A stretch of 34,448 nt of DNA from a virus. The stretch is from IMG/VR virus record IMGVR_UViG_3300042542_001135, positions 1-34,448 of that record. One strand, 5' to 3'. The notes under the pieces are model-generated. The model did no database searches, was not told where the DNA came from, and worked only from the letters and a program-made list of their open reading frames with translations. Below are positions 4,074-32,351 of the stretch, in pieces. The first letter of the stretch is position 1, and the number at the start of each line of letters is the position of its first letter. Made by a program: the position numbers and the translations under genes.

Positions 4074-4688
4074 TTATTTATCCTTCTTAATAGAGAATTG
4101 ACAGTACTCGGTTAAACCGCACATGTACTGGCAACTGTTTGTGTTGGGTAAGAATATAGCAGCCTTGCGGGCAGCGTCGAATTGCGTGATTAGGTATTCC
4201 ATCTTCTCGTACGTGTACTCAGAGAGGTCTACCATCTCGGATATGTTATTACCGCGAGACATGTAGTAGGTACCCCACTTGACCTCTATGCCGAAGGTCT
4301 GTTCAAGACCCAGTTTGTAGAAGCCAAGTTGCAAACTGCTGGTTGGTGTATTCTGTGATGTCTTTAAGTCGACAATGACCAGTTCTCCATTGACCTCAAA
4401 CACACGGTCAATAATCATCTTGACTGGTACGTCATTGACGACAGGGGTTAGGGCAAGTTCGATGCCTGGGTTGCCATCTGGTGCTGTCCAGATTTTCCAA
4501 TCAGGGTTAGTCTTGCGCCATGCGATGTAGCCTTCGACCCAACGGGGTCCTGATGCTTGCCAGAAGGTTTGGTCTTCCTTGTTAGGGTTAGCCTTAGTGG
4601 CACGACCACCAACGCGAGCATTGGTTAGGTCGGTATCACCCTTGCAGAGGTCCCAAGCGGTACCCCATAGTGCATTGGCTGTACTCAC
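4074..4688 (-). CDS. Cas4/RecB-like exonuclease, catalytic part
   Basis: 204 residues from a GTG start. PVKMIIDRVF supplies the first catalytic Asp and LVIVDLKTS the D-x-K of a PD-(D/E)XK nuclease, followed by a QLGFYKLGL helix typical of Cas4/AddB-type enzymes. Near the C-terminus CQYMC and a further Cys six residues on are three of the four cysteines expected for a 4Fe-4S cluster. The fourth cysteine and the motif-I His are on the separate upstream protein. The GTG start has AAGGAG 5 bases upstream and overlaps the previous stop (ATGTGA). Members of this family resect DNA ends for recombination. Confidence 0.85.
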   Translation of the reverse strand: MSTANALWGTAWDLCKGDTDLTNARVGGRATKANPNKEDQTFWQASGPRWVEGYIAWRKTNPDWKIWTAPDGNPGIELALTPVVNDVPVKMIIDRVFEVNGELVIVDLKTSQNTPTSSLQLGFYKLGLEQTFGIEVKWGTYYMSRGNNISEMVDLSEYTYEKMEYLITQFDAARKAAIFLPNTNSCQYMCGLTEYCQFSIKKDK

Positions 4689-4876
4689 ATGTTCTCCTTG
4701 TCGTAGTTCTCACACGCTAGGTGGAATGCTGAGCCTCCAACGGACCAGACGGATGGGGCTTCTTCCTTGTTGAGGAGTCTGCCGAGGTAGTACTGGTACC
4801 CACAGGTTAGGTAGGTTGTAAACGCAGAGTAGGACATATGCTCTGGTAGTGTATATTCTTCTAGTTTGATTGACAT
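4685..4876 (-). CDS. Cas4/RecB-like exonuclease, N-terminal part
   Basis: 63 residues from ATG 4876. It is the front of a Cas4/RecB-type nuclease: MSYSAFTTYLTCGYQYYLGRL holds the first Fe-S cysteine (C25) and SVGGSAFHLACEN holds the motif-I His (H52). The domain then continues in a different frame in the next gene; joined, the two total about 267 residues, a normal family length. I prefer ATG 4876 to TTG 4906 because a TATAGT box lies at 4889-4884, 7 bases before the ATG, suggesting a leaderless transcript; the extra N-terminal residues from TTG look unrelated. A genuine split, a programmed frameshift or a sequencing indel are all possible. Confidence 0.8.
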   Translation of the reverse strand: MSIKLEEYTLPEHMSYSAFTTYLTCGYQYYLGRLLNKEEAPSVWSVGGSAFHLACENYDKENM

Positions 4877-4912
4877 AGGTAGAACTATACACCTGGGTGA
4901 CGGCAACGTCGC
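4877..4912 (-). promoter_or_regulatory. Candidate leaderless promoter of the leftward early operon
   Basis: On the minus strand TATAGT (4889-4884) is a good -10 box and lies 7 bases before ATG 4876, so transcription would start at or next to the A of the start codon. Leaderless starts of this geometry are common in actinobacteria. No convincing -35 is seen at 16-18 bases, and there is no clear ribosome site before this ATG. Confidence 0.35.
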
Positions 4913-17845: not shown

Positions 17846-18799
17846 TTACGCGATTGATGAACCTGATTCGATTCGGTATAGTGCTTCTTCGCGGTAGCGA
17901 GCAAAGCCGAGTACGCCGTACCAACCCATTGGGCGGTGACGCATCAACTTGTCGACAACTGGTCCAATAACTACATGTGGCTCTTCTGCAACTGCTTCTG
18001 CAAGCGCTTGCTGTCCAGCGATGATTGTGCGGTACACCTTTGCAGATGAAGCACCGTCTGTTGTGTTGTATAGACGTGGTGACTCTACGAAGTATGCACC
18101 TTCGTATGTACCAATCTCGCCTGCCCAGATGCGGTCCTGTGAAGAACCGTATTGGTTAGGAAGTAGCCATCCAGCAGAACCTGTCTCAGCACGAAGGTCG
18201 TGTGAAACTTCTGGGTGTAGGCCAGCCCAGTATAGTGAACCCTTACGGGCTACTGCCTTACCTGCACGCAACTTCGCAACAGCCTTGCGGATGTTAGCAG
18301 AAGATAGTGTTGCAGCAGCAGTTACTGTTGCTGTTGATGTTGCTGTTGAACCTGAGTAGATTACGTTTGTTCCGCCGCGCAATGTTGTCATTGCTACTGC
18401 GTCGATTGAATCTGCAAGGTTGAATGCGATGATGTTAGCAATTGCTGGGTCTACATCAGCGAGGCTGAATAGTTCCAAAGCACGTGTTACAAGAACAGAG
18501 TTACCGTACTCGTTAAGAGTAATAGTAACAGATGTTGGTGTAGACATTGCTACTGCATCTGGGTCAACTGTCTCTGTTAGAGCAGTTGTTGCTGCTGATA
18601 GGTCTACATAACGTTGTAGAACTACTGTTGAGCCTGGGATTGCTTGCTTAGCGGGACGCTTGTCTGCGACTGAACGAATTAGGGGTTCAGAACGGAGAGC
18701 AAACTCAAGAAGGCGGTCATACGCCTTCTGTACTAAACCAGCGCTACCAGCGGTTCCGCCTAAAGAGGCGGAGTCTGTTGATACGTAGGCGTTAGCCAT
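17846..18799 (-). CDS. Major capsid protein (N4-gp56-like)
   Basis: 317 residues. The segment WAGLHPEVSHDLRAE...GWLLPNQYGSSQDRIWAGEIGTYEGAYFVESPRL (about residues 190-245) is the hallmark of N4-gp56-family major capsid proteins with the HK97 fold, as is the N-terminal helix KAYDRLLEFALRSEPLIRSVADKR followed by GSTVVLQRY. It assembles into the icosahedral shell around the scaffold. It follows the scaffold gene in the operon and is followed by a hairpin, both usual for this gene. No long cleavable propeptide is evident at the N-terminus, which matters for whether a protease is needed. Confidence 0.88.
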   Translation of the reverse strand: MANAYVSTDSASLGGTAGSAGLVQKAYDRLLEFALRSEPLIRSVADKRPAKQAIPGSTVVLQRYVDLSAATTALTETVDPDAVAMSTPTSVTITLNEYGNSVLVTRALELFSLADVDPAIANIIAFNLADSIDAVAMTTLRGGTNVIYSGSTATSTATVTAAATLSSANIRKAVAKLRAGKAVARKGSLYWAGLHPEVSHDLRAETGSAGWLLPNQYGSSQDRIWAGEIGTYEGAYFVESPRLYNTTDGASSAKVYRTIIAGQQALAEAVAEEPHVVIGPVVDKLMRHRPMGWYGVLGFARYREEALYRIESGSSIA

Positions 18800-18831: not shown

Positions 18832-19314
18832 TTAGTTTTGTGAACCGTAAATCATATTGATAATCTCTTCTGCGGATTGCGCATTGTCAATTCTCATTGA
18901 TAAATCTTCGGCTCGGTCAGGTGTTGTTGCACCCTGCGTAACCAAATCTTGCTGACGTAATGTAGCACGATTTTGGTTATTTACTTCGGGTGCATCCTGG
19001 CGAACTTCTAATCCAAACAAGTCTGCATTATCATCGAGCCAGTTATTCACTGACTCCTCGTTAATATCATCCAAGTCCTTTAGGACTAGTCGTAGTGCTT
19101 TAGGATTGACACCTTTCTTTTCTAGGGTTTCTTTGACGATTCTCTCACGTTGTCCTTTAGACAAAGTCTCGAGTTGCTCTGTGAGGTCCTTAATACGCTT
19201 TTCGTCTGCACGCTTGGCTTTACGCAACTTCTTTAAGAGGTCGCTTCCGTCCATCTGTGTTTCTGTATCGGTATCTAGTTCGTCGTCTTCGTCATCCCAG
19301 TAGTTGTTGCTCAT
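18832..19314 (-). CDS. Capsid scaffold protein
   Basis: 160 residues from ATG 19314, chosen because GAAGGGTGG lies just upstream and the longer frame begins in the leader. Very acidic N-terminus (DDEDDELDTDTET), a coiled coil (LLKKLRKAKRADEKRIKDLTEQLETLSKGQRE, about 24-56), and a C-terminal helix (AEEIINMIYG) that may contact capsid subunits. This is the standard plan of a scaffold, and the gene directly precedes the capsid gene. The scaffold is expected to leave or be degraded as the head matures. Confidence 0.8.
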   Translation of the reverse strand: MSNNYWDDEDDELDTDTETQMDGSDLLKKLRKAKRADEKRIKDLTEQLETLSKGQRERIVKETLEKKGVNPKALRLVLKDLDDINEESVNNWLDDNADLFGLEVRQDAPEVNNQNRATLRQQDLVTQGATTPDRAEDLSMRIDNAQSAEEIINMIYGSQN

Positions 19315-19343
19315 AGCAACCCACCCTTCTATTCGTTGTAGTC

Positions 19344-19385
19344 GCAAGCCTCAGTGACTAGTCGGGGAACTAGGCTGGCTCTTGC
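19344..19385 (-). promoter_or_regulatory. Stem-loop in the scaffold-capsid leader
   Basis: In the 120-base gap before the scaffold, CTAGT (19358-19362) pairs with ACTAG (19369-19373) and GCAAG (19344-19348) with CTTGC (19381-19385), giving a two-tier stem with internal loops. It is the largest gap inside the late operon and precedes the most highly needed structural genes. No clear promoter was found. Confidence 0.35.
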
Positions 19386-20979: not shown

Positions 20980-21968
20980 TATACTCCAAATCCAAACGCT
21001 CTAGCAAATTCAGTTGCAGAGTCGCGTGCGTTATTATTCGCTTCTTCGGTTAACTGGTACTTAGGGTCATTTTTTGCCTTAAGCAATAAATCGTAATATG
21101 ATGGTGGTGTACCCTTGCCATCTGCACCAGCAAAGTTTGTGTAGGACATTACAATAGGATTGACCTTCCAGTCAATATCTTTCTCTTCCATCTGCCAAGT
21201 TTTTGCAAGCATCTTAACAATAGGAGAAGCAATGTCGTAAGTAGTTAGAGTTGGGTCTTTAGCAAATCGGTCTGCAAACTGCGGATATTCCTTTATTGCA
21301 ATCTTCTGCAAAGAAACAGTGTAATCGGCAAGTGTCATGTCGCCTTTAGCAATTGCCTTAGCAGCAGCCTTTGCGTCTTTGTCAGAAACGCCAAAGATAT
21401 TAAACTGGTCAACCAAGCCACGTACTTGGGCTAGAACTCCGAGAGACTTGGCTCCTAGGGTTGCTTCGTTATTGAAGTCAACCTTCTTCCATACCCAGTT
21501 AGATGTAAACTCACCAGCATCAAAGAAAGATGGATACTCTGTTTTAGCAGTAGATGATATTGTTCTATCAACCGCACCAGGAGTAGTTCCTCCAGGGGTG
21601 ACTTTCTCGGCAGTAGATGTAACTACCTTTTCAATTTGTTTATTCTGCTCAGTATCAAACTCTTTCATGAACTGTTCTACATCTGCAGTTGTAAATTTAA
21701 CAGTGTAACCTGCTTGTTTAGCAGCCAATTTCATGATAGCGAGAGCAGTGTTCTTTGTTAACTTAGTCTTGCTGGTTGAAGTATTTGTACCAGAACGTGG
21801 GTTATTAGTCTCACCGCTACTTGCCATAACAGCATTGATAATTGCTGCTATGCCAGGAGAAAGTTCTTGAGCGTCTGCTAGTGGTGTTGTAGAAGCCGCT
21901 TTATTGGTTCCGTTGCCACCGTCAATATCGATGTTATCTTCGACACCATCTTTATCTCTGTCTGCCAT
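20979..21968 (-). CDS. Putative internal protein with N-terminal Ca2+-binding-like motif
   Basis: 329 residues. The first residues, DRDKDGVEDNIDIDGG, form a DxDxDG loop like those of EF-hand or thrombospondin type-3 repeats, suggesting a Ca2+ site. A Thr/Ser-rich linker follows, then a helical region (KTWQMEEKDIDWKV, ADYTVSLQKIAIKEYPQFADRF) similar in style to subunits packed inside heads. TAATG overlaps join it to genes on both sides. Role inferred as an ejection or core protein. Confidence 0.5.
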   Translation of the reverse strand: MADRDKDGVEDNIDIDGGNGTNKAASTTPLADAQELSPGIAAIINAVMASSGETNNPRSGTNTSTSKTKLTKNTALAIMKLAAKQAGYTVKFTTADVEQFMKEFDTEQNKQIEKVVTSTAEKVTPGGTTPGAVDRTISSTAKTEYPSFFDAGEFTSNWVWKKVDFNNEATLGAKSLGVLAQVRGLVDQFNIFGVSDKDAKAAAKAIAKGDMTLADYTVSLQKIAIKEYPQFADRFAKDPTLTTYDIASPIVKMLAKTWQMEEKDIDWKVNPIVMSYTNFAGADGKGTPPSYYDLLLKAKNDPKYQLTEEANNNARDSATEFARAFGFGV

Positions 21969-24900
21969 TAGTTAGCCGCCTTTAGTGAGTCATTATCAAA
22001 GTATCGTGTAATAATTGTCTTCAAGTTACCATCCCACTGACTAGCATTTTGCTCTGTCCACATGTTGTATGCTTCTCTAAGCATAGCCTTGCGTGGGTCA
22101 TAGTCTGGTAGCGATTGGTATGCCATAGAAAACATTGAACGAGCATTTAGGAATTCTTGAGTATCCTGCCAAAGTTGGCTCTTGCCATTCTTTGACATGA
22201 ACTGCTTGTCATTAACAATCTCAGTTAATGCGCGAGCATACTTGTAAGAAGTGTCGCCACTCTGTGCAAGTTGGTACTGGTCGTACCATGCCTGGCTTTG
22301 GTCCTTAAATGTTGTAACAGCAAGGTTATCTAGTACTGCCTTGAGTTCTGGGTGAGCACGTAGTGTCTTACCATCAGTAATCTTAGCCTCTAGAGCAGCC
22401 TTAGTAGCCATATAGGTGTTCCAAGTACGCTGCTTGATGCGCTCTGTTTCAATCTCCTGTGGACTCATCTTGAGTTCATTGAGATTCTTACTTGTTCCTG
22501 GCAATACTGCACTTGGGTTAGCAAGAAGTGTAAGGATGTTGTTTGACTGCTTTGCTGGGTCATAATCTAAATCAGCAGTTAGCAAGCCAACTAGTCCAAT
22601 TTCACCTGGCTCAATGTTAGCAAGTCGTCCAACCAAAGCATCATTATCTTCAAATATGCGTGCATACGCTTCGCTTGTTGCAGGGATATTAAGGTTCTTA
22701 GATGAACCAGTAAATGTCACTCTGTCAAGCATGAACTGTGGCCCAAGTAGAGATAGCATCTCTTCTCCTGCAGCATCACGTGCATCTTGATTAGCCATAC
22801 CCTGTGCAATGTACTTTTCCTGTAACTTATAGTACAGATTTGAAGTAAGTGACATTGGTGCATTGTCAATCTTGTACGGAATACCTGCATATGGTGATGC
22901 AAATGTAGAGAAGAACTTAGCGCGGAATAGACCCTTTACTTGCTTCTCAATGTCAGCATCAGATGGCATTTCCTTTTGGATTCCCATTTCAACCAACATT
23001 GCGTTGTAGTTGTAAATAGACTTCCAAGAACTTAGGTAATCTCTTTGTCCGCTCTGACCAAATATCTTACTTGCAAGTTCTCTCTGCCAGTCTGGGCCAG
23101 AGTTAACTAGGTTCTTAACCCAAGGTGGGGTGTAAGCATCTCTTACAGATGTTGGTGGACCGTATGGGAAGATAACCTTGTACCAGTTAGTTCCGCCAAT
23201 TGTCATTAGGTCTTCAACTTCTGCCTCTGACTTGTGAAATTTCTGCATTATCTGACCTACTGAAATGCCTGTAACGAATGACGGTCCTGGACGGTTAAGA
23301 AGGAAGCCTAGAGACTGTGCGCTAAGTTTAACGCCTTCTCCGCGTGCTCCTAAACCACCAAATAAGTCTTTAGTTCCAGGTACAACCAAGTGAGACATCT
23401 TGTTGATATCATCAGTTGGGTTACCATATTCGTCTACACCAAATGTTGTATATGAACGTCCATAGTTAGACACTAGTGCTGCTGCACGTGTTGGGTTCTT
23501 TGCAGCAAGACGACCATAGCGCAAGAATGCGTTAGCATTTGCACCTGGAAACGCCATGATTCCACGTAGTGAATTAATAAGACGGTTAGGGTTGTTGATA
23601 GTGTAGAGAGTCTTTTCCATCTCTTGCAAAGCCTCACGGCCTGCTGCTTGACGTAGAGCATTGTACTGACCAGTTGTCATCTCGACACCTTGGTCCATTA
23701 AGTACTGTGCTCGTCGTGCAACATTCTCGGTTGCTAACTTGTCAAACAAGGAACCACGAATAGGGTTTTCAACGCTTGCGAGTTTACTCATTACCCTAGT
23801 CATCATTTTGTTGTAGCCTTGGGCTGCAGTTGTGACACCGCTTACACCAAATGTTAATGCTTCGTAGTTGTGATTAGATGGGATAATATCATACAACTCG
23901 TCAAGGTATGGAGCAAGCAACTTCTCTAGTTGCTGTGACTTTACCTCACCCTTAAGAATCGCTGCGCGAGCCTCGTAAGATGGGTACATACGCTTAACAA
24001 GTGCAACCTTTTCAGTAAGATAAGAAACTGCTTGCTTCTCATCAACAACATCAAATGCCTTGAGGTATGCTGTTCCTTCTGCAGTCTTGCCCCACTTTAG
24101 AATATTCTCTACTGGGGTTTCTGCAAAGATTAAGTCCATCAGAGGCTCACCACGGTATTGACGGTTAGCAATATCTGCTAACTCTTCAAAGTAGTTCTCG
24201 TCTCCAACGCCAATCTTTGACATAGGAATCTTGCGCTTAATTGCAGCAACGCCTGATGCTACAGACATTTCTCCTAAGAAGTTAATCTGCTGTGTTCTAG
24301 CGTTCTGTGTTTCTGCGCGTACCGCTGCAGTAAAGTTGTTTGCACTTCCATCAGCCTGTTCTTCAATGAAAGAATCAATGTGATGCTGAGTTCCGTTAAG
24401 AACAATAGTGTTCTTTTCCTTTGAGTAGTAACGCTCTTTAAACTTTGCGCTCTTACCAAATACATCTGCTTGCTTAATTCTGGCTTCGCCAAGTGCTTTG
24501 ATAGCGTTATCAATGCTAACATATGCCTGTTGAACAGCATCATCTGCAGCCTGGATTACCTTTTTGTTGGTTGCCATCTTGCTAACTATGTCCTTGTAGT
24601 TAGCGATTGCTGCCTTAGCCTTCTTGACTTCTGCAGTCTTCTTAGTAATACCTGGATTAGCATCAAGGTATGCAAGTCTGCGCTCTAGTGTTGCCATGCT
24701 TGGTACAGCCTCTGTGACTCCATAAGGAACCATTGCATCGCGCAAGTCTAGTTCTATACCATCAACAACCTCTTGAATAGCCTTTAGTTCTTTTCTTGCA
24801 GCAGATAAATGCTGTGACTTTGTGGCAGGAGATGCATTCTTAAGAAGGTCATTGACAGTTGTTTCTGCATAGTTCTTGGCAGCAATTGCTTGCTGCAGCA

Positions 24901-27022
24901 TCTGGGACCTGTCTGATACGTTACTAACAACAGCATTATATTCTGCCTTATTAGTAACTCTTTTTTTAATGTTATCTACAGACCAGTTGTAAAAGTTCTT
25001 TGTTGCTCTTTTGCCGCCTGCTAAAATGATTTCGTTTCTTACGAAAGCAATACCTTGTGATAAGCCAACGCTGATGATTGGCTCAAACAATGACTGCTTA
25101 AATGCGTATGATGGGCGAGCAAGTACGTCGAATGTCCATACTTTGTTAAGTTCACCAAAGATGTCTCTTCCAGCACGATTTAACTGTCTGCCAGTTTTAG
25201 TAAATCCCTTTGCCGCTTCAATGTCTAATTGGGTCTCAATATCATCCCAAGGCGTGAAGCGATAAGATTCAGCAAACTGACGCAATGTCTGAGGCTGAAC
25301 AAGTGTAACATTTCCATCGTATCCAATGCCGAATCCGTTTTCTTTAACAGACTGCATTCCTTTGCTTACGTTCATTTGAAATTTTGCCACGTAGTTATTA
25401 ATTGCTACTTCATCATAGATGCCAGCCTTGTATGCAAGCATACGACCAACCTGAGCATCAATAGACTTGAGTGCTTCTACCTGTGCAATTGAACCCTTGC
25501 CGAGTGTGTTCATGTATTCGTTTTCTAAACGAGCACGAACAACTGAAACCTTTTCGTATAGTCCAGGCTGTATCTCAACTTTAGCAGCACCATCTCTAAA
25601 CATCTTCATGTTGTTGAGGAAGCCAGTAAGTTCTACGCGTGCCTGCATTGGGCGCATACCTGATAGGGATACGAATCCAGCAGGTAATGATTCTGTTGCA
25701 CGACCACCAAGTCGTACACCCTTCATTACTAATCCACCAGCAGTTGTTCCAATTGTAGTCTCAAGGAATCCTGAAATCTTTTCATATTCTCTACCACGAA
25801 TTGCAGACTTTGCTCCACGGATTGCTCCTTGGCCCTTGATTAGCGCAGATGCACCAACAATAGGCTCGATAGGCATGAAATCTTTGCCACCAAAAGTGAT
25901 GTCACCCTTTTCATTAAAGAATGCATCTCTAATCTTTGTAAACTGTGGGTCGTTATTAATGGCGTCATCAAATGCTTTCTTTAAACGCAAAGCAGAGACA
26001 CCTGTTGGCATAGGCAATTCGCCATTTTGAATAGCCTTAGTGCGTATTTGTGACTTAACATCAGCCATATCAAATAGTTTATCGCTTGATGTAGCGGCTA
26101 AGCGCTCTAGTGCAGCAAGGTTGCCCTTGTCACCAAGAAGAATGTCTTTAACAACGTTTGCATCTGTTGTTTCACGAATGATTGGAATCAACTTCTCATT
26201 GGTGCTGTATTTCATGACTAGGTCTTCAATGATACCCCAGTCTTTGCTACCAGCAAGCAACAATACGTGGCTTCCTGAGATAGTCTGAGCACCCTGAGCA
26301 CCGTTTGTGTTGGCATATAGTATACCAGCATCCATGTCTGATGCCAAAGAGTCGACACTCTTACCCTTGGTGTACAGTCCTGCAGGCTTTGCAACGGCTT
26401 TTACACCAGCGCCAGCAAGTTTACCAGCAACGCCGATACCCTTGTTACCTACAAGTAGGTCACCAATACCAGTGTACCAGCGACCAACTGCGTTATCAAC
26501 AAAGTTCTTCTTGATACTCTCGTCTTCCCATAGGTTGACGTTACTTAGGTTAATCTTACCAGTAGAAAGAACTAGTTGAGACAAAGGACTAATGATTGGG
26601 ACTAAAGTTGACTTAGTAAGTGCCTGCATTGCAGAAACTTTTTCACTACGATTGTAGGCTCTCTTGATATCCTCAAACTGGAAACCCTCTTCAAACTGAC
26701 CCTTTTGGTAAAGGGGAGAGTTTACATCAGTTAGCAAAGCAAATGTAGATATTGGACGAGAAATAAGCGGTGAGTAAATCTTCTCATTAAACTTAACAGC
26801 ACCCTTAAGAAGAAAGTCTGCTGTAGACTTAGTTGCAGCCTTGGCTAGTCTTCCTGGTGCGGTAGACTCAATTGACTTGTTTACGCTATCAAGAGCATTT
26901 CTTACATTTGTAGTAAATTCTTGTTCTCTCTTTTGTTCATCTGCATTGAGATAAGAACCGCCACCTGTGAGTTTTTTAAGAACGGAACCTGTGGTAGATA
27001 GAAATGAATTCCATGAAGACAT
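21968..27022 (-). CDS. Giant virion protein (1684 residues), putative ejection protein
   Basis: At about 5 kb this is the largest gene in the window. It is almost all helix with long coiled coils (about residues 730-860: AIAAKNYAETTVNDLL, ARKELKAIQEVVDGIELDL, KAKAAIANYKDIVSK). Hydrophobic segments occur near 190-220 and 420-440. A late segment LRGIMAFPGANANAFLRYGRLAAKNP (about 1190-1215) and AYTPPWVKNLVN are distinctive. I see no lysozyme, transglycosylase, RNA polymerase or MuF signature. Very large proteins in phages without a tape measure are usually stored in the head and ejected to build a conduit for DNA. That role is an inference; a tape measure is ruled against by the absence of tail-tube genes. 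Confidence 0.55.
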   Translation of the reverse strand: MSSWNSFLSTTGSVLKKLTGGGSYLNADEQKREQEFTTNVRNALDSVNKSIESTAPGRLAKAATKSTADFLLKGAVKFNEKIYSPLISRPISTFALLTDVNSPLYQKGQFEEGFQFEDIKRAYNRSEKVSAMQALTKSTLVPIISPLSQLVLSTGKINLSNVNLWEDESIKKNFVDNAVGRWYTGIGDLLVGNKGIGVAGKLAGAGVKAVAKPAGLYTKGKSVDSLASDMDAGILYANTNGAQGAQTISGSHVLLLAGSKDWGIIEDLVMKYSTNEKLIPIIRETTDANVVKDILLGDKGNLAALERLAATSSDKLFDMADVKSQIRTKAIQNGELPMPTGVSALRLKKAFDDAINNDPQFTKIRDAFFNEKGDITFGGKDFMPIEPIVGASALIKGQGAIRGAKSAIRGREYEKISGFLETTIGTTAGGLVMKGVRLGGRATESLPAGFVSLSGMRPMQARVELTGFLNNMKMFRDGAAKVEIQPGLYEKVSVVRARLENEYMNTLGKGSIAQVEALKSIDAQVGRMLAYKAGIYDEVAINNYVAKFQMNVSKGMQSVKENGFGIGYDGNVTLVQPQTLRQFAESYRFTPWDDIETQLDIEAAKGFTKTGRQLNRAGRDIFGELNKVWTFDVLARPSYAFKQSLFEPIISVGLSQGIAFVRNEIILAGGKRATKNFYNWSVDNIKKRVTNKAEYNAVVSNVSDRSQMLQQAIAAKNYAETTVNDLLKNASPATKSQHLSAARKELKAIQEVVDGIELDLRDAMVPYGVTEAVPSMATLERRLAYLDANPGITKKTAEVKKAKAAIANYKDIVSKMATNKKVIQAADDAVQQAYVSIDNAIKALGEARIKQADVFGKSAKFKERYYSKEKNTIVLNGTQHHIDSFIEEQADGSANNFTAAVRAETQNARTQQINFLGEMSVASGVAAIKRKIPMSKIGVGDENYFEELADIANRQYRGEPLMDLIFAETPVENILKWGKTAEGTAYLKAFDVVDEKQAVSYLTEKVALVKRMYPSYEARAAILKGEVKSQQLEKLLAPYLDELYDIIPSNHNYEALTFGVSGVTTAAQGYNKMMTRVMSKLASVENPIRGSLFDKLATENVARRAQYLMDQGVEMTTGQYNALRQAAGREALQEMEKTLYTINNPNRLINSLRGIMAFPGANANAFLRYGRLAAKNPTRAAALVSNYGRSYTTFGVDEYGNPTDDINKMSHLVVPGTKDLFGGLGARGEGVKLSAQSLGFLLNRPGPSFVTGISVGQIMQKFHKSEAEVEDLMTIGGTNWYKVIFPYGPPTSVRDAYTPPWVKNLVNSGPDWQRELASKIFGQSGQRDYLSSWKSIYNYNAMLVEMGIQKEMPSDADIEKQVKGLFRAKFFSTFASPYAGIPYKIDNAPMSLTSNLYYKLQEKYIAQGMANQDARDAAGEEMLSLLGPQFMLDRVTFTGSSKNLNIPATSEAYARIFEDNDALVGRLANIEPGEIGLVGLLTADLDYDPAKQSNNILTLLANPSAVLPGTSKNLNELKMSPQEIETERIKQRTWNTYMATKAALEAKITDGKTLRAHPELKAVLDNLAVTTFKDQSQAWYDQYQLAQSGDTSYKYARALTEIVNDKQFMSKNGKSQLWQDTQEFLNARSMFSMAYQSLPDYDPRKAMLREAYNMWTEQNASQWDGNLKTIITRYFDNDSLKAAN

Positions 27023-27031
27023 TCTTACCCC

Positions 27032-27259
27032 CTAAAAGTTTCGTTTAATATAATTTTTTTCGGTTCCGCCTTTTACATCTTCCTCAGTAATCCCAATAAT
27101 AAAAGAGTCGCGCTCTTCTGGAGACTTCCATGGAATCATTGCAAGTTCAATTGCTATGGCTGCATTTTGGTAGCCAAGCGAATTGGCAAACTTATCAACA
27201 TTGTCAAAGAAACTTCCAGGTGTGAATGTAACATCATCCATTTGGAGTGCTTCTGGCAT
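27032..27259 (-). CDS. Small acidic virion-module protein
   Basis: 75 residues, unrecognised. It reads TFTPGSFFDNVDKFANSLGYQNAAIAIELAMIPWKSPEERDSFIIGITEEDVKG. Its start overlaps the end of the 161-residue gene by 26 bases and its stop is 9 bases before the giant gene. An adaptor or chaperone for loading the giant protein is possible but speculative. Confidence 0.5.
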   Translation of the reverse strand: MPEALQMDDVTFTPGSFFDNVDKFANSLGYQNAAIAIELAMIPWKSPEERDSFIIGITEEDVKGGTEKNYIKRNF

Positions 27260-27719
27260 TTTGAATAAGATAGTTCACAAAACGCTTGTATGAATCTGGA
27301 GCATTTGGAGACTGAGCAGCAAGGCTCAAGTCTGGAAGATATGTCATTGCAATCTGTACATTCTCATCTTGACGAGCATCATTCTTAAACATGTTTGGTA
27401 GTGCTTCTGAACCAGGACCAGGACCAAAGTCTACACCAGCAGTAATTGGTTCTGATGGGTTATTGGTTGGGTCCATTAGTGTGCCTAGCGGTTCCATACT
27501 TACTCCGCCATAGGCTGCTTCTTGTGAAGGCGCTGACGCCTTGACTGATGCTACTGCTGCATTTCCTGCAACTCGAGAGTTGTTCAATGCGCTGTTCTCA
27601 CCATAAGCAAAACCTGTGTAGTTACCGCTCTGTCCTGCTCCGCCTGTGCCTGAAACATTAGCAGGATTGTATTGTGGACCGCCGTTAGCCCCACCACGAT
27701 TCTCTGGTGCAGTTGTCAT
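27234..27719 (-). CDS. Gly/Asn-rich virion-module protein
   Basis: 161 residues. The first 75 are Gly/Asn/Ala-rich and probably disordered (GGANGGPQYNPANVSG, GGAGQSGNYTGFAYG). A compact C-terminal part has MTYLPDLSLAAQSPNAPDSYKRFVNYLIQNA. It lies directly after the Ntn-hydrolase gene. A flexible linker or assembly protein for the head is plausible; no family recognised. Confidence 0.5.
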   Translation of the reverse strand: MTTAPENRGGANGGPQYNPANVSGTGGAGQSGNYTGFAYGENSALNNSRVAGNAAVASVKASAPSQEAAYGGVSMEPLGTLMDPTNNPSEPITAGVDFGPGPGSEALPNMFKNDARQDENVQIAMTYLPDLSLAAQSPNAPDSYKRFVNYLIQNARSTPNG

Positions 27720-27727
27720 TGTTCCTC

Positions 27728-28294
27728 CTACTTAAATTGTGTAAATATATGAATTGGTTCTGAGCACATATTGTCATATTGAATTGCAATAGCAATTGCT
27801 TTACGAACCATTGTTTCTGCTTGTTTAATAGTAGTTACTTTTTCCACACCCAACGCTGCCAATGCGCCGAGGGCAACATCGCCACCACTACCCATAACGT
27901 ATACATTACGAACATCGGTATCCCAAGAGTAATCCTCAGAAACCGAGAAAACTTGCCCCTTGACTGAGATGAGGAATCCCCCATCGATTTGTGCAACATC
28001 GCCGTCCTCTTTCATATCTATACCTGCATCAACAAAGTTCTTTCGCATTGCTGGAATAAACTTCTGTGTCATGAAAGTATTTAAGTCTTCTTGCAGAGTT
28101 GGCTTAGGTTGTTTGTAACCATAATGCAACACGTTACTAGCACGTGATGAACCACAGCCAGCAATTAGAATCCCATTATTATCTACAATCTTAGGAGTCT
28201 TTGCTATTTGAAAACGTCCATGCTCATCACTAAGACGTGAATCACATCCTAGTACCGACCAACCGTCACCTTGTATCGCTACCAGAGTTGTCAT
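27728..28294 (-). CDS. Proteasome-beta/HslV-like Ntn hydrolase
   Basis: 188 residues. It starts MTTLVAIQGD, so removal of Met would expose a Thr nucleophile exactly as in HslV and 20S beta subunits (TTIVxV / TTTVGI). Counting Thr as residue 1, an Asp is at 17 (CDSRLS), the canonical position, and a Lys near 33-34 (TPKI) fits the catalytic Lys. GILIAGCGSSRAS and VYVMGSGGDVALGAL match the two conserved Gly-rich strands, and IHIFTQ matches the final strand. It has no propeptide, like HslV. It lies two bases after the portal gene, where prohead proteases usually are. Inferred role: head-maturation protease or scaffold degradation. No ATPase partner (HslU) is encoded nearby. Confidence 0.8.
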   Translation of the reverse strand: MTTLVAIQGDGWSVLGCDSRLSDEHGRFQIAKTPKIVDNNGILIAGCGSSRASNVLHYGYKQPKPTLQEDLNTFMTQKFIPAMRKNFVDAGIDMKEDGDVAQIDGGFLISVKGQVFSVSEDYSWDTDVRNVYVMGSGGDVALGALAALGVEKVTTIKQAETMVRKAIAIAIQYDNMCSEPIHIFTQFK

Positions 28295-28295
28295 T

Positions 28296-30068
28296 TTATC
28301 CCTTAGTTGTTACTCGTCCCGAAGCCTTGCCACTACCACTTAGAGTAGATAGAATTGTTTGTAAATCTGGGGCTGGTGCTGCAGGAGTTATACCTGCATC
28401 CATTGGAGAGCCTCCTACTGGAGCCGCGCCTGGAGCAGGGGACGGCTGCTCAACAGGAGAAGTTGCCGCCCCAGCAGGAGGAACTTGTTGCTGTGGAGCA
28501 AATACTTCTGCAATAGCATCTTCAAGAGTCTGACCCTTTTGACGTGCAGCAATTACTCCCGCAATCTTAGTTACGATAGATGCTGGGTCTCCGCCTTGCG
28601 TAGCCATCTGCGGGATGGCCTGAGCCATTGCAGTAATACCACTAAGAAGTGATGAACGCATGTTTTCGATTTCAATCTTTTCAAGTTCTTGTGTAACATT
28701 GACTGTGAATGGTAATTCACGCATAGCCATGTCCTTGGAGATTAATCCTCCACCAAGAGCCTGTAACATAAAGATAAGTCCCTGTGCTGGGTTAAGACCC
28801 GCAAGCATTCCATAACGGACGTCTGCAGAGTAATCACCCTTAATGTCTTTAGTTGGTCGGTATGTGATTTCGTAAGGTGAACCAGAATCTACACCACGAA
28901 TTGTCTTTTCTTCTGCGAAGATTTTCTCATCTACTTCAAAGCAGAGAGAGACAACATCACGTAGAGCAGATGCAAAGATTGCCTGTGCTGATTTAACCTG
29001 TGTATCAAAGGCACCCATAAGTGCCTGTACGCCTTGACCAGTAACGATGCTTGCATCGATGTTACCAGAACGTCCTTCTGGGTAACGAGTACCTGAGCGA
29101 AGTTCTTGGTTAAGTAGTTGTGCTTCCGTAAATGCGCCTTGTGGAATGTTTAATTCGACACGACGAACGCCAGCAGGGTTGGAGGTACGGATAACCGCAT
29201 CTCCACCCAACTGGAGTTCTTGAACGTCTTGAGGTAGTACAATTGGTGCTTGAACACTTTTCTCTGCTGCTTCCATTGCCAGTAAGGCGAAACGGTTGCG
29301 GAGAAGTTGAATACCGAGTACGTCGTCGAATTGTCCACGCATTTCACCATCAATAGATGGCTTACGCGCCACGACAACCATCATCTTGCCCATTGGATTC
29401 AATGCGCGAGATAAAACTAAATTACCCTTTTTAGGTAAGTAAATTACTGATTGGTCCTTGTCATAGTAACGAACCATCTCAACCTGCGCATGCAGGTCTT
29501 GTGTGTATCCGTCGCGACCAAGGATTTGAGTTTCATACTCTGGGAACTGTGCGACAAGTTCTCCAAGAGTCATCATGTAACGTTTTGCAAATGCCACACA
29601 GCGTCCGTAGCGGTCAAATTCTGGGTAAGCCCCGATTGGATTTTCTACGCGGATACGTGGCAACTTGCTTTCTTCGTCCAATTCAATCATGAACGGAACG
29701 AAACCATATGTTAGATACCAGTCTGCGCCTGAGTACATCTGTACTGATAGGTCAGAGTGGGAGAAGTAGTTAGCAGCAATACGGGTACGCTTGTCAGCAA
29801 AGTTACGTGCCTTGTCGCTAACAGAGTTAGCAGCAGAGCAGTTAATTGCTGGAAGTGGTGCCATAACCTCTGAGAGGTCACGTGCTACTACGTCGATAAA
29901 GTTTGCAACTACGTTAGCATCTACACCCTCTGGGAAGAACTCAGGGTAGACAGATGCAATCTGTCCCTTACGAACTGCGAGTACGCTTAGATTACGAGCA
30001 TCTCGTTCGTGGTTACGGTAGCGCAACGCTTCAACGCGTGCTGCTACTTGTTCCATTGATAATGCCAT
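28296..30068 (-). CDS. Portal protein
   Basis: 590 residues. Helical N-terminus, then a core with SGADWYLTYGFVPFMIELDEESKLPRIRVENPIGAYPEFDRYGRCVAFAKRYMMT (about 115-165), typical of phage portals, and a long helical ENMRSSLLSGITAMAQAI region near 470-490, consistent with the stem or crown. The C-terminal 100 residues are Pro/Ala/Gln-rich. It forms the dodecameric ring through which the terminase pumps DNA. Its place after terminase and before the protease-like gene is standard. Start ATG 30068. Confidence 0.85.
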   Translation of the reverse strand: MALSMEQVAARVEALRYRNHERDARNLSVLAVRKGQIASVYPEFFPEGVDANVVANFIDVVARDLSEVMAPLPAINCSAANSVSDKARNFADKRTRIAANYFSHSDLSVQMYSGADWYLTYGFVPFMIELDEESKLPRIRVENPIGAYPEFDRYGRCVAFAKRYMMTLGELVAQFPEYETQILGRDGYTQDLHAQVEMVRYYDKDQSVIYLPKKGNLVLSRALNPMGKMMVVVARKPSIDGEMRGQFDDVLGIQLLRNRFALLAMEAAEKSVQAPIVLPQDVQELQLGGDAVIRTSNPAGVRRVELNIPQGAFTEAQLLNQELRSGTRYPEGRSGNIDASIVTGQGVQALMGAFDTQVKSAQAIFASALRDVVSLCFEVDEKIFAEEKTIRGVDSGSPYEITYRPTKDIKGDYSADVRYGMLAGLNPAQGLIFMLQALGGGLISKDMAMRELPFTVNVTQELEKIEIENMRSSLLSGITAMAQAIPQMATQGGDPASIVTKIAGVIAARQKGQTLEDAIAEVFAPQQQVPPAGAATSPVEQPSPAPGAAPVGGSPMDAGITPAAPAPDLQTILSTLSGSGKASGRVTTKG

Positions 30069-30485: not shown

Positions 30486-32351
30486 TTATCCGTATGTTTG
30501 GGACCATTGGTCCGCAAATGCTTCGTCTAAATTTACTGCTTGTCGTCTGGATGCTTGTGCTTGAGTTGTCCATCTGTTCTGCATCCATCTAGATGCACTG
30601 CTGCTCTGTTGCATCATCTCGCGTATGCGGATAATAGCAAACCAAAGAGCCATAACGCAGTCTGTTGGGTTTTTAGTATCTGGCTTCCAGGTAATGAGTT
30701 CTTGTACGAGGGTCTTCAGACCTTCAGAACCTTCATTGCTTGGTAGTTCGATAATGTTGTTATCTTGGAATCTACCATCTCGGGTATTGCCAAATAACAT
30801 AGACATAGACGCAACACCAAAAGACGTGTCCCATTTATTCTTGCCAGTAAAGTGTGAGTTGAGTTGGCATCCATAAGATGCTAGATATGCTCTTAAGTCG
30901 TCATCTAAGGCATACGCCTTCTGGTGTGCGTTAATTTCAATGCGCAGTTCTTGTGGACGGTACTTCTCAACCCATTCCTCAATCAAAGATTGAATCTTTG
31001 CGGGACTTGGGTCAGTCATGTTGATACAGTCCAGAACGTAGATACGTCCATCTGCCCTGTTATATGTAACAGCAACGGCTCCTGTAGCACCTGCCATAGC
31101 AGGGTCAAGGCCAATAATAGTATAACCCTCAATATGCTGAGGATGTCCTGGGGTGTTAGGCTTTAGAGGTCCTCTTTTTCGCATTCCGTTGACGGAACCT
31201 GCGATACAGGTAGGCGAGAAGATTGAGTCCTCTTGGACGTCTTCTTGCTGGTAGACCATAGCCCATACAGACGGAGCGACCTCAGAGCGACGCTTAAAGA
31301 GCGAGGGTCCATCCCATTTGGGGTATAATCCATTTTCAAGTACGTCGTCCAAATCGTTTTCTTGTTGGTCTGTTTCAGGCCAAAGTGTTTTCCAGTTAGC
31401 AGGTTTATCATCAAACTGCAATACGGCTGGCATAGCACAGTAAGTAAAGGGGGTCTTGCCACCAGTCCACTGTGAACCATCACGAATCATCTTGTAGAGG
31501 TCTACAGAGGATACTCGGGTACCTACAATGATAAGTTTACCGTGTCGTCCCAGACGGGTAATTACTTCTTTTTGAAGCCACTCAATCTGCTTTTCCCACT
31601 CATGAGCGTTTGAACCCATCACCACGTCATCAAGGATAATCAGGTCGGCACGTGCTCCGTAAATCTGTGACCCAAAGCCCAGAGCCTGGACAGTAGGGTC
31701 TTTTTCGCCAGAGTCTCGCCCTGTTCCCAGGTAAATCATATCAGCAGACCATTGTGTAGCATCTGCCTTATATCCACCGTTAGGGCCAAAGGCCGTCTGT
31801 AGTTTCATGTAGCCAGGGTGGGAAAGACGCGTCTTAATAGCGCCTAGGAACTTGCGAGCCATACCCTGTGTTTTAGAGACGATAATCACTCGGGTGTTAG
31901 GGTTGGTCACAATCTGGTGTGTTACGTAGTTAGTTGTAATCGTAGTCGACTTGGCGTGCTCGGGTGGCACGTTAATCAAGACACGATTAGGGTCTCCAGC
32001 CTCGTAGGTCATACCCGCAGGTAGCCAACGTGGGACATTACCCTCAATAAGGTCAATCCAGTTTAACTGGTGATTAAATAGTTTAGAGCCAAGGAAGGTC
32101 TCTGAGAACTCAGCAAAGGGCATATCCTTAAGTTCGGATAAGTCCTGCTTGATGCCCTTGCCTGCAAGGCGGGCTTTATCTGCCTTCTCCTTGAAGTCGG
32201 CATCTGCCATAGACCATTGGCGAAAGGCGGTATCTTGACGGTCAACGGCGGCCATAGCGGCGGTGACGGTAGCCCCTTGTTCTAGAAGAGCCAGTACTTT
32301 AGCCTGGGCTTCATCCTTACCATAGGTCTGTTTTCCAGCCTTGCGTCCCAT
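30486..32351 (-). CDS. Terminase large subunit with N-terminal helix-turn-helix
   Basis: 621 residues. The ATPase has a deviant Walker A PPEHAKST (129-136), Walker B LIILDD (237-242) and the VGTR coupling motif (about 277-280). The nuclease begins with GLDPAMAG (D416), then LRIEIN and a late Asp in NPTDCVMALWF. Residues 14-62 (VLALLEQGATVTAAMAAVDRQDTAFRQWSMADADF) look like a helix-turn-helix of the kind in small terminases and transposase-like proteins. No separate small terminase gene is seen in this window, so this domain may take over DNA recognition. It cuts concatemers and pumps DNA into the procapsid. Start ATG 32351, first gene of the late operon. Confidence 0.9.
   Translation of the reverse strand: MGRKAGKQTYGKDEAQAKVLALLEQGATVTAAMAAVDRQDTAFRQWSMADADFKEKADKARLAGKGIKQDLSELKDMPFAEFSETFLGSKLFNHQLNWIDLIEGNVPRWLPAGMTYEAGDPNRVLINVPPEHAKSTTITTNYVTHQIVTNPNTRVIIVSKTQGMARKFLGAIKTRLSHPGYMKLQTAFGPNGGYKADATQWSADMIYLGTGRDSGEKDPTVQALGFGSQIYGARADLIILDDVVMGSNAHEWEKQIEWLQKEVITRLGRHGKLIIVGTRVSSVDLYKMIRDGSQWTGGKTPFTYCAMPAVLQFDDKPANWKTLWPETDQQENDLDDVLENGLYPKWDGPSLFKRRSEVAPSVWAMVYQQEDVQEDSIFSPTCIAGSVNGMRKRGPLKPNTPGHPQHIEGYTIIGLDPAMAGATGAVAVTYNRADGRIYVLDCINMTDPSPAKIQSLIEEWVEKYRPQELRIEINAHQKAYALDDDLRAYLASYGCQLNSHFTGKNKWDTSFGVASMSMLFGNTRDGRFQDNNIIELPSNEGSEGLKTLVQELITWKPDTKNPTDCVMALWFAIIRIREMMQQSSSASRWMQNRWTTQAQASRRQAVNLDEAFADQWSQTYG

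Follow-up and report, generated by a model that had tools for sequence, protein, structure and literature searches.

Phage-borne proteasome homologues are known from a survey by Fuchs, Alva and Lupas (2021; PMC8665760), which had neither an informative genomic context nor a function for them. One of these, PPH, is a group I homologue of about 140 aa that is devoid of helix H2. Another, AAH, was not recorded in the survey from any Actinobacteria-specific phage. Propeptides occur only in the proteasome beta and HslV subunits, and an acidic loop after H2 is linked with BPH, an enzyme that apparently needs no unfoldase (PMC8665760). In the literature we searched, HslV-like genes of phages are discussed only in this survey and in a report of a jumbo-phage genome.

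The gene considered here belongs to IMG/VR record IMGVR_UViG_3300042542_001135, all 34,448 nucleotides of which were analysed (the window). The nearest public phage records are those of Caudovirales sp. ct2KA10 (OX376640/OX376641; portal 80-81% and capsid ~80% identical), which are the Planktophila phages LanE43AprE7 and LanE43AprF5; the host used for their isolation was strain LanE-43 of 'Ca. Planktophila', order 'Ca. Nanopelagicales' (PMC10202952). Hence, the window very likely comes from a phage of freshwater Actinobacteria, and its clade consists of viruses with short tails that infect abundant lake bacteria. A search for the portal in bacterial genome contigs, made to find the host, gave no match. 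The annotation of the two isolates lists some genes for host-protein degradation, and the main text of that report leaves the gene studied here unnamed (PMC10202952). All 17 long related records that were checked (about 37-42 kb) carry WhiB, and none was found in the window itself, a 34-kb record.

Fold, catalytic residues and class of the protein

The original prediction had proposed a proteasome/HslV-type threonine peptidase at this locus. The open reading frame is real and lies on the minus strand (Table 1), and the assignment is borne out by family profiles, the structural model and residue conservation. The protein, a proteasome-like Ntn hydrolase, matches Pfam PF00227 (Proteasome) above the family cut-off (E=1.8e-6) and PHROG 1040, 'peptidase HslV family' (E=1.5e-22). 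When a profile of 72 homologues from the same genomic slot was compared with the PDB, BPH (5ovs/5ovt/5ovu) was the best match (E=1.5e-10, ~20% identity), followed by HslV (1e-8) and then by 20S beta. The AlphaFold2 model (pLDDT 92.6, pTM 0.89) has the Ntn fold and resembles BPH, HslV and 20S beta. HslV and BPH are its top Foldseek matches, and VIA-align superimposes it with Z scores of 19-20 on 20S beta, BPH and Anbu (~19.5 for BPH), placing T2 on residue 1 of BPH.

The N-terminus reads MTT as described, and counting from Thr2 as residue 1 the conserved Asp is residue 17 (D18), while the Lys expected near 33-34 is residue 34 (K35). These residues are kept in the family. Among the distinct homologues listed, which extend to ~25% identity, T2 is present in 194 of 195 (a Ser replaces it in one), D18 and K35 in all 195, and G48, which corresponds to Gly47 of the oxyanion hole, in 193. 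The gene is under strong purifying selection, with a median dN/dS of 0.06-0.13 within types, and conservation and dN/dS together place it far beyond chance. The fold and the N-terminal Thr, Asp, Lys and Gly put the protein among the proteasome-like Ntn hydrolases of the PF00227 superfamily. Judged from sequence and model, the predicted Ntn fold and intact catalytic site are almost certain, and the near-invariance of the catalytic residues makes it likely that the protein is an active threonine peptidase.

Within the superfamily, the protein would be classed by its sequence and model as a phage-borne homologue of a group I-like (BPH/HslV-like) kind. It is not HslV (ClpQ), as it scores 17.5 bits with the NCBIfam HslV model against a cut-off of 157.75. 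A 20S proteasome beta subunit was ruled out in the same way (TIGR03634, 18.9 versus 224 bits), and the Ntn profile matches nothing else in the window that could be an alpha partner. PPH was ruled out too, the Ntn protein being 188 aa long with both model helices (50-59 and 71-89) present before the loop. In most of the Ntn types found in the slot, that loop, which follows the second helix, is acidic. As the original prediction had stated, no hslU is encoded in the window; furthermore, none of the 18 records of the clade contains an AAA_2 ATPase (PF07724; HslU/ClpX-type), and the same search was positive in 14/14 control genomes. PADLOC reported no defence-family match. On the Ntn tree, the slot proteins fall into three groups with the Ntn proteins of other phages between them, and the AU test does not reject a single origin (p=0.25). 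The description of the enzyme as borrowed from cellular degradation is correct only in a broad sense, since its branch of the proteasome homologues is one already known from phages.

Genomic surroundings and capsid maturation

The gene adjoins that of the portal protein, as had been noted, although the distance between the portal stop codon and the Ntn ATG is one base rather than two. It is also true that the gene lies upstream of scaffold and capsid, but they are not its immediate neighbours: five genes (~8.4 kb) intervene, and the order downstream is 161-aa, 75-aa, 1684-aa, 329-aa, 514-aa, scaffold-like and capsid. The linkage to the portal recurs in other phages, as a homologous portal gene directly precedes the Ntn gene in 159 of the 160 IMG/VR loci that were retrieved with the Ntn gene as query, among the matches listed. 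The contigs are metagenomic, many of them fragments, and the matches listed are weighted to close relatives. The spacing is 1-3 or 13-18 nt in 276/278 loci. The two large gaps are one of 173 bp and one of ~450 bp, the latter in locus L230 (7323-7773).

Table 1. Features of the window and, for p80 and p84, of related loci (L numbers)
Feature	Coordinates	Strand	Remarks
Large terminase subunit TerL	30486..32351	minus	PHROG 38
Portal protein	28296..30068	minus	PHROG 104, homologues
One base separating the portal stop from the Ntn start codon	28295..28295	minus	Tight coupling to late structural operon
Proteasome-like Ntn hydrolase	27728..28294	minus	188 aa, ATG start; catalytic T2, D18, K35; oxyanion G48
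161-aa protein	27234..27719	minus	3' flank of the exchangeable slot; PHROG 8200
75-aa protein	27032..27259	minus	Homologue in an Ntn-less relative
1684-aa protein	21968..27022	minus	One of several interchangeable large-protein types; PHROG 10618
Putative scaffold	18832..19314	minus	PHROG 7813; ATG start (MSNNYW...) adopted from homologues
Major capsid protein (MCP)	17846..18799	minus	PHROG 1357; N4-gp56 family (TIGR04387); no delta domain
p80	L208 7787-8005, L226 7791-8057, L249 3642-3902, L267 3242-3502 and others		Replaces Ntn in the slot
p84, 84 aa	L091 8033-8284; L092 16334-16585		Overlaps the Ntn stop codon

Some features of the surrounding genes are of note in their own right. The TTG start of the scaffold-like frame (18832-19347) is probably wrong, as the aligned homologues begin at the ATG at 19314; the gene of Streptomyces phage Dennebes at this position is annotated 'scaffolding protein'. 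Between portal and scaffold, the ~1600-1760-aa gene falls into some ten types, which are unrelated or hardly related to one another, in phages whose portals are ~80% identical; one of these types is that of Streptomyces phages. The capsid proteins of L091, L092 and L316/L317 have ~400 aa versus 317 aa, independently of whether the locus carries Ntn or p80, which suggests an insertion inside the protein that may be a decoration domain. At the other end of the window, 4074-4688 and 4685-4906 lie in overlapping frames and both match the PD-(D/E)XK nuclease PF12705 (profile positions 120-247 and 1-50), so that the exonuclease gene may be split or frameshifted here.

The usual prohead protease is indeed missing, neither the Peptidase_S78 nor the ClpP-type family being found in the window and the 17 related records. 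The proposal that the Ntn protein takes its place as the capsid-maturation protease was not supported, however, as relatives that share the TerL, portal, scaffold and capsid genes have a small helical protein in its stead. Among the matches listed, the Ntn gene is present in 108 and absent from 16 of the 124 assessable loci that were fetched by the portal alone. The Ntn profile found no match in 13 whole Ntn-less records, and a failure of the search was ruled out by positive controls, which did match in a similar search. The Ntn-less phages are 59-77% identical to the window in TerL, 79-82% in the portal, 69-73% in the scaffold and 73-76% in the MCP; these levels are similar to those of the Ntn-bearing LanE43AprE7 (scaffold 69%, MCP 78%). 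The termini of scaffold and MCP are equal with and without the Ntn gene. The colinear Streptomyces podophages of the Beephvirinae (portal ~43-45%, MCP ~53-57% identical) give no Ntn match and have small unrelated genes after the portal gene. As the head module occurs without the Ntn gene and shows neither a delta domain nor protease-specific termini, the protein would not be classed with the prohead maturation proteases, and it is very probably not a required head protease.

An exchangeable slot behind the portal gene

In 261 freshwater loci with enough sequence, the slot contains either Ntn only (245) or the small gene p80 only (16), and in no case both or neither; these loci are not independent and represent 198 distinct portals with Ntn and 11 with p80. 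The three loci that have neither gene are Streptomyces phages. The replacement is exact in loci L267 and L263. Their DNA has 94% identity along a 3.2-kb stretch that ends 19 nt after the portal gene, and 91% along 5.2 kb downstream. Between these flanks, one locus has Ntn and p84 and the other has p80 only, of ~85 aa. The same replacement is found at lower identity in L249/L159 and L258/L248. Mapped on the portal tree, the slot (Ntn group or p80) has switched state 20 times or more, with no fewer than four separate origins of p80, and portals that are up to 96% identical are accompanied by Ntn proteins with 28-33% identity. That the Ntn type might be tied to that of the large (1.6-kaa) protein was considered and rejected, as the two reassort freely. 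On these comparisons, the Ntn gene is an exchangeable, selectively maintained cassette between the portal and the 161-aa gene.

The p80 protein has ~73-89 aa and is unrelated to Ntn. It has a basic start, two predicted helices and an acidic end, and its model, of low confidence (pLDDT 68), consists of two helices with disordered charged tails, which does not look like a protease. No match to p80 was found in public phage records, and its only matches, to PHROG 8955 (function unannotated) and 20731, are weak. The other small protein, p84, follows the Ntn gene in 64/64 loci of types B and D and in 0/171 of types A, C and E. It is possibly a partner or an inhibitor of the Ntn peptidase.

Proposed role and relation to known systems

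The explanation that we favour overall, with moderate confidence, is that the Ntn protein is a catalytically competent accessory threonine peptidase, which is made late, has host or infection-modulating targets and is not the maturation protease. A Met preceding Thr is normally removed, and the nucleophile is thereby freed. With Met1 gone, Thr2 would be the nucleophile and a propeptide would not be needed. Translation would be coupled to that of the portal, late in infection. By analogy with BPH, the subunits probably assemble into a ring that is independent of ATP, and peptides would be hydrolysed without a dedicated ATPase. The enzyme may then act late on host or infection-modulating proteins, in counter-defence, host takeover or exclusion. 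The combination of conserved head proteins with a diversified, replaceable protease suggests a changing partner, which we take to be on the host side, and the chances of a host-directed accessory role appear to be about even. The same observations can be read differently, as a slot that is always filled could mean a morphogenetic step with p80 as the alternative, co-transcription with structural genes also suits a virion or assembly role, the host direction is read from the pattern of diversity and exchange only, and this exchange may in part be a general mosaicism of the portal-scaffold region.

A further-reaching account would make the slot a dedicated effector locus, in which hyperdiverse proteases, some with p84, and p80 are swapped under host-driven selection and the protease is a late or virion-delivered weapon against host proteins or defences. 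If true, this would be a case of a proteasome homologue used as a weapon, but we consider it unlikely. It is also unlikely that the protein is a degradative core which relies on an unfoldase of the host (ClpX/ClpC, or the actinobacterial ARC/Mpa) and so breaks down specific host proteins during infection. A proteasome beta-like fold, the lack of a phage ATPase and the isolation of relatives on an actinobacterium (PMC10202952) would fit such an arrangement. However, HslV is unrecorded from Actinobacteria (PMC8665760), which makes an HslU ring in the host improbable, the loop after H2 has in most types the acidic character associated with the ATPase-free BPH (PMC8665760), and no docking motif was identified in Ntn.

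It seems quite unlikely that Ntn and p80 serve one and the same non-essential or redundant morphogenetic step, such as the trimming of an ejection protein. The slot is never empty in the freshwater loci and is tightly coupled to the portal, but the Ntn type is not matched to the type of large protein, the same large-protein region (91% DNA identity) goes with either Ntn or p80, and the Streptomyces relatives have neither. A non-peptidase activity in vivo, as in a connectase-like ligase or an amidohydrolase, or an inactive structural ring is decidedly unlikely. Connectase, a ligase, does belong to the same family (PMC8665760), but the near-invariant triad and the oxyanion glycine argue against a pseudoenzyme, and the model is without the S3/S4 helical insertion typical of connectase. 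Finally, that Ntn cleaves scaffold, capsid or portal in place of an S78/U35-type enzyme is highly improbable, for although the gene immediately follows that of the portal within the late operon of a genome without an S78 or ClpP-type protease, it is absent from relatives with closely similar scaffold, MCP and portal (~80% identity) and from the Beephvirinae with their ~55% identical MCP, it is replaced exactly in the L267/L263 pair, and the capsid is of the N4-gp56 type with no cleavable extension that tracks the presence of Ntn.

The annotation as a capsid-maturation protease, tempting but unsupported, is thus removed. The clade is large, its Ntn gene has a constant position and is extremely diverse, one natural replacement is exact, and two members are in culture (LanE43AprE7 and F5), which makes the function testable. 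The Ntn protein resembles the HK97-type prohead proteases (Peptidase_S78) only in where its gene lies, between portal and capsid, whereas fold and chemistry differ and close relatives with the same head proteins manage without it.

The Ntn family itself is not new, PHROG 1040, PPH and AAH having been known earlier (Fuchs et al. 2021). Single genes of the PHROG 1040 type occur in Actinomycetia phage DSL-LC01, Psychrobacter phage D'Alembert, Tenacibaculum phage pT24, Vibrio phage VpV262 and Arthrobacter phage Pitbull. They belong to the same family by profile, with ~25-38% identity in tblastn for most, and these phages are likewise without HslU. In contrast to the window, their gene sits among early or accessory genes rather than after that of the portal, and an exchange slot was not seen. 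A fixed portal-adjacent slot with alternative occupants in freshwater actinophages appears to be undescribed in the literature searched. With AAH and PPH, the Ntn protein shares being phage-borne, of group I and without a propeptide or a known ATPase partner (PMC8665760), and it extends the proteasome homologues to phages of freshwater Actinobacteria.
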